Source of the DNA: Lachnospiraceae bacterium
GTDB lineage: Bacteria > Bacillota > Clostridia > Lachnospirales > Lachnospiraceae
Assembly (NCBI GenBank): GCA_017395635.1
Contig: JAFQOE010000018.1
Span: 1-38,282 of the forward strand
Direction: 5' to 3'
Length of the DNA stretch: 38,282 nucleotides
The notes below the pieces were generated by a model that was not told where the DNA came from, made no database searches, and saw only the letters and a list, made by a program, of their open reading frames with translations. Made by a program: the position numbers and the translations under genes. Position 1 is the first letter of the stretch. Every line of letters begins with the position of its first letter. Shown here one piece after another: positions 28,083-30,950 of this stretch.

Positions 28083-28123
28083 AGGCAGGTTCTATTTTAA
28101 GTATAGAACCTGCCTCCTTTTTT
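28083..28123 (+). terminator. Terminator of the 75-aa gene
   Basis: AGGCAGGTTCTAT (28083-28095) pairs exactly with 28103-28115, followed by CC and six Ts. Those Ts also form the left arm of the next stem, the variable part of R1. Confidence 0.9.
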
Positions 28124-28255: not shown

Positions 28256-28373
28256 ACTCTAAAATGTTTGTTTAGTGAACATTGACGAGTTTTGTGATTG
28301 TTTATATAATTTTAAAATATAGGATGAAACACTTAGAGGAAAGAAATGTGTTGTAAGAAAAGGGATTAGTAGA

Positions 28374-30950
28374 ATGAGAAAATTAGCAGTAGGCATTCTT
28401 GCTCATGTAGATGCAGGTAAAACTACATTATCGGAAAGTCTTTTGTATGAAAGTGGGATGATTAAGCAGATTGGAAGAGTGGATAATCAGAGCACATTTT
28501 TGGATACGGAAGAATTAGAAAGGGCCAGAGGTATTACGATTTTTTCAAAGCAGGCGGTTATGGAATGTGGAGATACGTTGATTACGTTGTTGGACACTCC
28601 GGGACATGTGGATTTTTCTGCGGAAATGGAGAGAACACTTTGGGTAATGGATTATGCTATTTTAGTAATTAGTGGTGCGGATGGCGTGCAAGGACATACT
28701 TTGACGTTATGGAGATTGCTGGAACGATATCATGTACCGACTTTTTTGTTTGTGAATAAAATGGATCAATTAGGAACGGACAAAGCAACTTTGTTGGCGA
28801 ATATTCGTAAGTGTTTTGGAGAATCGTGTATTGATTTTACTAGCTTGGATGAAGAGATGTTTTCGGAACACATCGCGGTTTGCGATGAAAAACTTTTGGA
28901 AGCATACTTAGAAGGGAAAAAGATTGTAGACGAAGACATTGTTAAACTTATTACTGAAAGAAAGGTATTTCCGTGTTATTTTGGCTCGGCTTTGAAATTG
29001 GAAGGTGTTAGTCGTTTTCTTTCGGAAATATTGAGATATACAAAGAATGATGCCGGAAGAAAAGAATTTGGGGCGAAAGTATTTAAGATTGTGAGAGATT
29101 CTCAAGGAAATCGTTTGACCTATATGAAAATAACGAGTGGAGAACTGAAGGTAAAGGATCTGGTGAAAGGTATGACAACTGAAGGTTGTTATGAGGAGAA
29201 GGTCAATCAGATACGTATTTATTCTGGGGATAAATATCAGACGAAACAAGTTGCATCAGCGGGAACAGTGTGTGCAGTTACAGGATTAACGAAAACATAT
29301 CCGGGAGAAGGATTGGGTGTGGAAAGGGATTCAGAATTACCGATGCTGGAACCGGTTCTGACATATTCTGTGGAGTTACCGGAAGAAGTAGATGCGGCAC
29401 ACATGTTGCCGTTATTAAAGCAATTGGAGGAAGAACAACCGGAATTGCATATTTTGTGGCAGGAAGAAACAAAGGATATACAGATTAAATTGATGGGAGA
29501 AGTACAGATTGATGTTCTGAAAAAGAGAATTCTTGATCGGTTTGGTGTAGAAGTATACTTTGGTGTCGGTAATATTGTTTATAAGGAAACTATAACGAAT
29601 GTGGTGGAAGGTGTTGGACATTTTGAACCACTGCGTCATTATGCGGAAGTACATTTGTTGTTGGAACCGGGCGAACAGGGAAGCGGAATGCAATTTATGA
29701 TAGATTGTAGCGAAGATGTGTTAGATAAGAATTGGCAGAGATTAATACTAACACATTTGGAGGAACGTGCACATGTGGGGGTTCTGACGGGATCGGAACT
29801 TACAGATATGAGAATTACGGTAGTGGCTGGACGGGCTCATACGAAGCATACGGAAGGTGGAGATTTTAGGCAAGCAACTTATCGTGCTATACGGCAAGGG
29901 TTAATGCAGGCGGAATCAATATTGTTAGAACCGTATTATGCATTTCGTGTTGTTGTTCCTCAAGATTTGGTGGGAAGAGCTATGACGGATATTAATCAGA
30001 TGTGTGGTGAGTTTGAGGGACCGATGATAGAAGGTGAACAAGCTGTTTTGGAAGGAGTGGTTCCGGTTGCCACTATGAGAGATTATCAAGTGACATTGAA
30101 TTCCTATACAAAAGGGCGTGGTACGTTGTTTTGTACTTTAAGTGGATATGGTCCGTGTCACAATCCGGAAGAAGTGATGGAGCAAATGGGGTATGATCCG
30201 GAGAAGGATACGATGAATCCGTCGGCATCAGTTTTTTGTTCGCATGGTGCGGGATTTATTGTACCATGGCATCAAGTGAAGGATTATATGCATGTGGAAG
30301 CTGTTTTGGAGAAGGATGATGTGGAAGAAGAGTTGGCTTTAGATATGTCGGAATTAACAAAGAGAAAAGCAGCTTTAGTAGATTATACGATTGATGAAGA
30401 ACAGATAGAAGAAATTATGAATCGTACTTTCCGTGCGAATGAAAAGGTTTCAAAACATTATTACAAGAAAAGGCAACCGAGGCTGGATATAACCTATAAA
30501 GGACAAATACAACCACGTTTTAAAGATAAATATTTAATTGTAGATGGCTATAATATTGTTCATGCCTGGGATGAGCTGAAAAGTCTGGTAAATGGTAATA
30601 TGGAAGGTGCCAGAATGAAACTGATGGATATGTTATCGAATTACCAGGGGTTCGTTAAATGCGAAGTGATTGTTGTATTTGATGCATATTTGGTAAAGGG
30701 AAACTTAGGAGAGATGTTTGATTATCAGAATATTCATGTTGTGTATACCAAAGAAGCGGAAACGGCGGATGCCTATATTGAGAAGTTGACTCATAAGATT
30801 TCAAAGGATTATCATGTGACAGTGGCTACCTCGGATGGTTTGATACAGTTGATAACACGTGGACAGAATTGTAGGATTATGTCTGCGAAAGAGTTGCAGA
30901 TAGAAATAGAACGTGTGAATAATGAGATAAGAGAATATTTGAATGATTAA
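28374..30950 (+). CDS. TetM/EF-G-like translational GTPase fused to a Rae1/YacP-like NYN nuclease domain
   Basis: One uninterrupted 858-aa frame. Residues 1-~650 are a ribosomal-protection/EF-G-like GTPase: G1 AHVDAGKT (10-17), RGITI (52-56), DTPGH (74-78), NKMD (128-131), then domains II-V. Near residue 490 the domain IV tip reads AHTKHTEGGDFRQ; from memory TetM has YSPVST then PADFR there, so the tetracycline-displacing loop is not conserved. After a charged linker (~650-715), residues 719-858 are an NYN/PIN-like nuclease domain matching B. subtilis Rae1 (YacP): IVDGYN with D724, VVFDAYLVKG with D770, TKEAETADAYIEKL with E796 and D799, ATSD with D821. All expected acidic residues are present. 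Rae1 cuts mRNA in the ribosomal A site, where TetM-like factors also bind. The joint function is inference. It is monocistronic, behind an R1 repeat. Confidence 0.9.
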   Translation: MRKLAVGILAHVDAGKTTLSESLLYESGMIKQIGRVDNQSTFLDTEELERARGITIFSKQAVMECGDTLITLLDTPGHVDFSAEMERTLWVMDYAILVISGADGVQGHTLTLWRLLERYHVPTFLFVNKMDQLGTDKATLLANIRKCFGESCIDFTSLDEEMFSEHIAVCDEKLLEAYLEGKKIVDEDIVKLITERKVFPCYFGSALKLEGVSRFLSEILRYTKNDAGRKEFGAKVFKIVRDSQGNRLTYMKITSGELKVKDLVKGMTTEGCYEEKVNQIRIYSGDKYQTKQVASAGTVCAVTGLTKTYPGEGLGVERDSELPMLEPVLTYSVELPEEVDAAHMLPLLKQLEEEQPELHILWQEETKDIQIKLMGEVQIDVLKKRILDRFGVEVYFGVGNIVYKETITNVVEGVGHFEPLRHYAEVHLLLEPGEQGSGMQFMIDCSEDVLDKNWQRLILTHLEERAHVGVLTGSELTDMRITVVAGRAHTKHTEGGDFRQATYRAIRQGLMQAESILLEPYYAFRVVVPQDLVGRAMTDINQMCGEFEGPMIEGEQAVLEGVVPVATMRDYQVTLNSYTKGRGTLFCTLSGYGPCHNPEEVMEQMGYDPEKDTMNPSASVFCSHGAGFIVPWHQVKDYMHVEAVLEKDDVEEELALDMSELTKRKAALVDYTIDEEQIEEIMNRTFRANEKVSKHYYKKRQPRLDITYKGQIQPRFKDKYLIVDGYNIVHAWDELKSLVNGNMEGARMKLMDMLSNYQGFVKCEVIVVFDAYLVKGNLGEMFDYQNIHVVYTKEAETADAYIEKLTHKISKDYHVTVATSDGLIQLITRGQNCRIMSAKELQIEIERVNNEIREYLND

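Follow-up and report, generated by a model that had tools for sequence, protein, structure and literature searches.

The window analysed here, a stretch of 38,282 nucleotides from a Lachnospiraceae bacterium, encodes a protein in which an EF-G/Tet-type translational GTPase is joined to a Rae1/YacP-type NYN nuclease. The fusion is real and conserved, and the reading that suits it best is that it has succeeded Rae1 in this group of Clostridia; on balance, we lean towards a one-piece ribosome-acting factor that replaces the stand-alone Rae1/YacP. Where the fusion has spread, a separate yacP is missing or ruined, and for that reason the protein looks like a working replacement and not like a tetracycline-resistance gene. 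Should this hold, a large share of gut Clostridia would handle paused ribosomes by means of a GTPase-nuclease chimera instead of a Bacillus-type Rae1. Moreover, the recognition of a ribosome's state and the cutting of mRNA, which are usually studied apart, would be joined in a single protein.

The architecture itself is not new. In Atkinson 2015 (PMC4342817), Tet proteins of ten Clostridiales are described with an added YacP-like NYN domain, are filed under the tetracycline resistance proteins and are given a proposed resistance mechanism. The initial annotation of this DNA had pointed to no functional study of such proteins; none was found in the literature searched, but the fusion as such was already in print.

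Architecture of the fusion gene

A single open reading frame had been proposed to carry both the GTPase and the nuclease, and this architecture was confirmed (Table 1). The promoter-like site upstream is weak by itself, as 12 such sites were found against a mean of 9.6 in shuffled sequence. At gathering cut-offs, Rfam returned two tRNAs only from the window and no regulatory RNA leader. The linker between the two halves was modelled as two low-confidence helices, with pLDDT below 50 for residues 689-716. An operon partner was considered and rejected: across 62 fused loci, 60 of them with a scorable centre, and with clusters in fewer than 4 loci left out, the commonest recurring neighbour cluster occurred in just 12 loci and lay within 1.5 kb in 4.

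Table 1. Features of the fusion gene and of the sequence upstream of it, in window positions
Feature	Position	Strand	Basis
Terminator-like hairpin, 13 pairs and T run, between the fusion and the preceding gene	28083..28115	+	consensus scan only
Promoter-like TTGACG-17-TATAAT, 11/12	28282..28310	+	consensus scan only
Translational GTPase-NYN nuclease fusion, 858 aa	28374..30950	+	ORF and domain profile matches
GTPase (G) domain, residues 4-224	28383..29045	+	domain profile; AHVDAGKT, RGITI, DTPGH, NKMD
Domain II, residues 232-307	29067..29294	+	domain profile
Domain III, residues 326-397	29349..29564	+	domain profile
Domain IV, residues 400-513	29571..29912	+	domain profile
Domain IV tip GRAHTKHTEGGDF, residues 486-498	29829..29867	+	alignment
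Domain V, residues 517-597	29922..30164	+	domain profile
Extension CHN...SVFCSHGAGF.V.W..V..YMH, residues 595-640	30156..30293	+	alignment
Poorly conserved linker, residues 641-716 (~76 residues)	30294..30521	+	alignment, structure prediction
Rae1/YacP NYN nuclease domain, residues 721-855	30534..30938	+	profile, alignment, predicted fold

The GTPase and its relatives

The N-terminal half is, as first suggested, a translational GTPase of the EF2/EF-G group, with the motifs and domains II-V present, and its predicted structure matches both EF-G and TetM. Separate EF-G-like genes exist in the fusion's own genome. At the tip of domain IV, residues K491, H492, T493, G495, G496, D497 and F498 are invariant in 31 aligned rows. 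The pattern KHTxGGDF occurs in 46 of 47 fused rows (L118 departs from it) and in 12 of 12 stand-alone relatives, and the tip is exactly KHTEGGDF in 40 fused rows and 8 stand-alone relatives. The comparison tips were HxVDSxEMAF in 4 of 4 EF-G rows and YSPVST in 6 of 10 Tet-like rows. Fused and stand-alone KHTxGGDF GTPases also have in common the CHN...YMH extension, which is absent from the EF-G and Tet-like rows compared and from one short row (L076). C595, C622 and W632, within the CHN...FCSHG part, are invariant in 31 fused and stand-alone rows; at position 624, H is the usual residue when the GTPase is fused, and K is seen in many of the stand-alone rows. The extension (residues 595-640) could possibly form a metal site or a disulphide.

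A quick tree of 79 GTPase rows, with SH-aLRT support only, places all 64 KHTxGGDF-type rows in one clade (support 100); the alignment and tree omit the broken or partial L062, L063, L064, L066, L082, L083 and L097. Inside this clade are a stand-alone clade of 14 rows (support 98) and a group of 47 fused and 3 nuclease-less actinobacterial rows (support 93). This topology would fit a single fusion event, with the nuclease lost later in Actinomycetota. A single origin is not confirmed by the NYN tree (82 rows, bootstrap unsettled), where the fused rows are not one clade, several long fused rows lie at the base, and the labels fused and stand-alone change three times. At least two of these changes are forced by starred branches, and one is due to the mislabelled L053, a contig-edge piece of a fusion that is labelled stand-alone in the tree and fused in the residue and tail counts below.

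GTPases without a nuclease were found as 12 stand-alone copies in 11 of the searched genomes, of which 3 lacked any yacP. The three actinobacterial relatives (L160, L155 and L159) come from Bifidobacterium avesanii, a Bifidobacterium MAG and a Collinsella MAG. No YacP domain was detected in the two Bifidobacterium genomes, and the Collinsella MAG has one separate match. A further nuclease-less relative (L225), with the altered tip SNVHTVGGDF, lies on a Ligilactobacillus salivarius plasmid. A simple check for motifs showed no nuclease remnants behind the actinobacterial and Ligilactobacillus GTPases.

The nuclease and its C-terminal tail

The assignment of the C-terminal part to Rae1/YacP is borne out by an above-cut-off match to the NYN_YacP profile (PF05991) and by a predicted Rae1 fold. 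This part was folded separately because, with the full-length model, the GTPase fills the list of structural matches, with no Rae1 among the matches listed. The expected acidic and catalytic residues are kept: D724, N727, D770, D799 and D821 are identical in 53/53 fused and 29/29 stand-alone rows, and E803 is kept in 50/53 and 29/29, respectively (L066 was left out of the NYN sets). From these alignments, the nuclease domain looks competent.

What is missing from the window's fusion is the C-terminal tail of Rae1 (LEKxR/WRR). The LEKxR tail is present in all 29 stand-alone rows and lost in 25 of 52 fused rows, L065 being omitted from the count (Fisher 1.7e-6, relatedness ignored). On a quick tree of the fused rows, tail loss requires 7 changes. 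The tail was also judged by Pfam coordinates. In the family, 56 of 119 fused copies (edge cases omitted) and 9 of 9 stand-alone copies reach profile position 163. Among class genomes, 41 of 41 stand-alone copies reach 159, while 32 of the 50 fused copies end by position 154. Of the 55 stand-alone copies in the phylum sample, 52 (counted by eye) reach 159. Three divergent stand-alone copies of family f74 end at 135-140, and tail loss is thus not strictly confined to fusions. The Bacillus subtilis Rae1 segment ends WRR, with position 166 as its last aligned residue. Work on efp suppressors isolated a B. subtilis Rae1 R166P change that was presumed to be a loss of function (PMC6613710). Most simply read, the tail loss would reflect a shift of docking to the GTPase; a changed role of the nuclease is possible.

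Distribution and exclusion of stand-alone yacP

A survey of the fusion's frequency, proposed along with the initial annotation, revealed that it is widespread, and that fusion and stand-alone yacP are mutually exclusive in the family and class samples. "Fused" here means an NYN match inside a long frame, most cases being judged by frame length alone; the GTPase part was checked by BLAST in 31 of 126 family cases and, beyond the family, in 22 genomes of the class. In the family sample of 150 genomes, a PF05991 match occurred in 135. The match was fused in 126, a figure that includes 2 frame-broken and 7 contig-edge cases (G128 among the latter) and G135, whose 690-aa frame is short at the N-terminus, and it was stand-alone in 9. 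The remaining 15 genomes had no YacP domain and also no GTPase above the EF-G level. In the class sample of 137 genomes, 92 were matched, with 50 fusions, 1 frame-broken fusion (G193) and 41 stand-alone copies, and 45 had none. In the phylum sample, 63 of 101 genomes had a match, 62 of them over the cut-off; 7 of the 62 lay in frames of at least 875 aa, two of which (G000 and G178) were already in the class sample.

No clear case of a fusion together with a clear stand-alone yacP was found in the 150 family genomes, where G039 carries a fusion and a contig-edge YacP piece of ambiguous type. None of the 137 class genomes had two matches over the cut-off, the second hit of G269 (21.3 bits) falling below it. 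The initial annotation had asked whether fused genomes lack a stand-alone yacP; in the window's own genome, no second YacP domain was found in an assembly that is 91.7% complete. A co-occurrence of unfused GTPase with unfused yacP was also considered and rejected, the counts of 8/50 versus 3/35 not going beyond chance (p 0.51; 20 of the 45 yacP-less class genomes included).

Fusion genes split by frame changes or stops, or shortened at the N-terminus, were seen in G042 (L062), G140 (L063), G135 (L064), G193 (L083) and G211, the last with two damaged copies (L082 and L097); these may represent either assembly error or recent decay. Two human-faecal scaffolds labelled "Bacteriophage sp.", MT835563.1 (L227, marked unverified) and MT835514.1, align over 98% of the fusion, with 55% and 51% identity, respectively. 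In L227 it is a single 878-aa frame that has both the tip and the NYN motifs. The gene may be carried by phages, or else these scaffolds are bacterial.

Probable replacement of the native yacP

Of 20 class loci, 18 have the stand-alone yacP directly behind rlmB, as do 7 of 9 loci in the family. In 16 of the 20 class loci yacP has rlmB on one side and a sigH match on the other (NCBIfam identifies the L128 copy as SigH). Since 7 of the 9 family copies sit after rlmB, an origin of these stand-alone genes from split fusions is not favoured. Two family copies with no rlmB nearby (L052 in G059 and L057 in G020) are possibly split or relocated yacP genes. In the window's own genome the order is cysS, a gene without an NCBIfam match that we take to be mrnC (mini-RNase III-like), rlmB and then a tyrosine-recombinase gene, and yacP is absent there. 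The recombinase gene (L140:8372-9472, G000:C65) begins a short way past rlmB, near the place expected for yacP, and a mobile element perhaps occupies the old yacP site or its vicinity.

In 38 fused genomes (37 and the window's own), a search for yacP remnants with 29 stand-alone YacP queries covered at most 1.5 kb downstream of rlmB; two stretches were short (L260, 771 bases; L263, 267). None of the 38 had an intact yacP after rlmB. Remnants at E<=1e-3, calculated per query for 29 queries against a small database, were found in 5 of 38 (L231, L232, L233, L234 and L237; 4 at 1e-4), at loci of families f24, f19 and f47, versus none in the 38 upstream stretches and none in 190 codon-shuffled ones. 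In 9 of the 38, the ends of rlmB and the sigH match are at most 65 bases apart, so that yacP has no room there; in 18 of the 38, no sigH turned up within reach, leaving the yacP slot without an outer boundary.

The exchange of yacP for the fusion is shown most directly in genus g177. There, G200 has rlmB-yacP-sigH and no fusion, while G269 and G171 carry the fusion (one contig each). G171 has a broken yacP between rlmB and sigH, in pieces in two frames that are 46% and 64% identical to the G200 protein, with the first 47 residues unmatched. Such a genus, in which some species carry the fusion and others do not, also provides a natural experiment.

From gene content we infer, and strongly so, that the fusion arrived and the native yacP then decayed; this order of events would in turn imply a shared function. 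Horizontal spread is suggested by trees in which fused rows of f7, f19, f20, f24 and f47 fall into clades that also hold fused rows from the window's family. These include an 18-row clade in the NYN tree (support 96/87) and, in the GTPase tree, a 10-row clade with L033 (support 100) nested in a 15-row clade (support 89).

The ancestral neighbourhood of yacP, next to the rRNA methylase gene rlmB and a mini-RNase III-like gene, could also point to rRNA/tRNA maturation or ribosome biogenesis, with the GTPase as a checkpoint and the NYN domain trimming precursor RNA. In Atkinson 2015, NYN domains are cited as proposed rRNA/tRNA maturation enzymes (PMC4342817). We consider such a role very unlikely, given the full EF-G/Tet domain order including domain IV and the description of Rae1 (PMC6613710) as cutting mRNA endonucleolytically in the A site of the ribosome.

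Tetracycline resistance as a competing explanation

The initial annotation held tetracycline protection to be unlikely since the YSPVST loop III is replaced by KHTEGGDF, and the curated models agree. The nearest NCBIfam model, tet_protect, gives 435.3 bits against a cut-off of 775, and the TetM/TetW/TetO/TetS model gives 291 against 1100. In the same assembly, a separate YSPVST ribosomal protection protein (G000:C81, L078:1487-3415, on a 3.9-kb contig) scores 1309 bits against that cut-off of 1100; tetracycline protection, if used, therefore has its own gene. The annotation had also mentioned TetM-family labels on similar long proteins of Clostridia. The fused gene of an Agathobacter rectalis record is annotated as a TetM/TetW/TetO/TetS family resistance protein, and that of a Monoglobus record reads translation factor GTPase.

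Atkinson 2015 and, by implication, these annotations would make the fusion a Tet-family resistance protein to which the nuclease adds a resistance mechanism, and the nearest profile, the sporadic occurrence of the stand-alone GTPase relatives and the TetM/TetW/TetO/TetS label, which the nuclease-less L. salivarius plasmid relative shares, are in keeping with that. We nevertheless regard this as improbable. The scores fall well below the curated cut-offs, the tip is a different conserved one, and the own assembly holds the separate protein just described; furthermore, the fusion is near-core in the family sample, and decay of the native yacP in fused genomes is unexpected for a resistance gene. 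A word of caution also applies to gut genomes, where tetracycline-resistance counts sometimes include this near-core gene.

Proposed mode of action

If the fusion has indeed replaced Rae1, its GTPase, with the KHTEGGDF tip, would enter the factor site of the ribosome, and domain IV would then probe the decoding centre. GTP hydrolysis would be followed by withdrawal of the GTPase. The NYN domain, tethered by ~76 residues, a length sufficient in principle for its reach, would enter once the GTPase is probably out of the way, and, where a ribosome is slow or paused, would cut its mRNA in the A site or close to it. The GTPase would supply the docking that Rae1 achieves with the aid of its own C-terminal tail. 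Shared function, ribosome binding, the mRNA substrate, gating by GTP and the order of events are what we infer.

Some observations weigh against a simple form of this scheme. The published Rae1 model is reported to place Rae1 in the ribosomal A site. Since domain IV and Rae1 would both claim that site, simultaneous occupancy is unlikely, and the NYN domain would have to arrive once domain IV has left, or be handed to an adjacent ribosome. Such predicted crowding is a point against the recruitment picture of the initial annotation. Tight coupling is argued against by the survival of the GTPase without a fused nuclease in several lineages and by the lack of significant co-occurrence of the unfused partners.

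A rival reading is that the chain carries two activities independent of each other: the NYN domain would do the job of Rae1 unaided, the GTPase would have an unrelated task in translation and the fusion would only fix their ratio. The linker looks flexible, both halves also occur alone, the unfused partners show no significant association, and 27 of 52 fused rows keep the Rae1 tail. We think this rather unlikely, as the fusion is retained in nearly all of one GTPase-tree clade across many families, the tail has been lost repeatedly in fused rows, and both parts come from families that act at the ribosomal A site.

A more far-reaching version of the replacement reading is a GTP-gated cleavage factor, which we put forward tentatively, as a possibility short of an even chance. 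Here the GTPase would sample the ribosome, its departure or rearrangement would place the NYN domain in the A site only under slow elongation, and hydrolysis would license the cut. Repeated tail loss would then record a transfer of ribosome recognition from nuclease to GTPase, and gut Clostridia would possess an enzyme devoted to quality control that databases partly conceal under tetracycline resistance.

Comparison with known systems

The Tet-YacP/NYN fusions of Atkinson 2015 have the same domain architecture and come from the same bacterial group as the window's fusion; compared by architecture only, the two are very likely the same family. The available portion of that article makes no mention of yacP replacement, tail loss or near-core spread. 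Rae1/YacP of B. subtilis (5mq8/5mq9) is stand-alone, is encoded beside rlmB (yacO) and has a tail ending WRR, whereas the window's protein is fused, encoded elsewhere in the genome and tail-less. In contrast to Tet(M)/Tet(O) (3j9y), the fusion has KHTEGGDF in place of YSPVST, scores below the curated cut-offs and carries a longer C-terminal extension and a nuclease. From EF-G, finally, it differs in the tip and in the addition of both the C-terminal extension and the nuclease.
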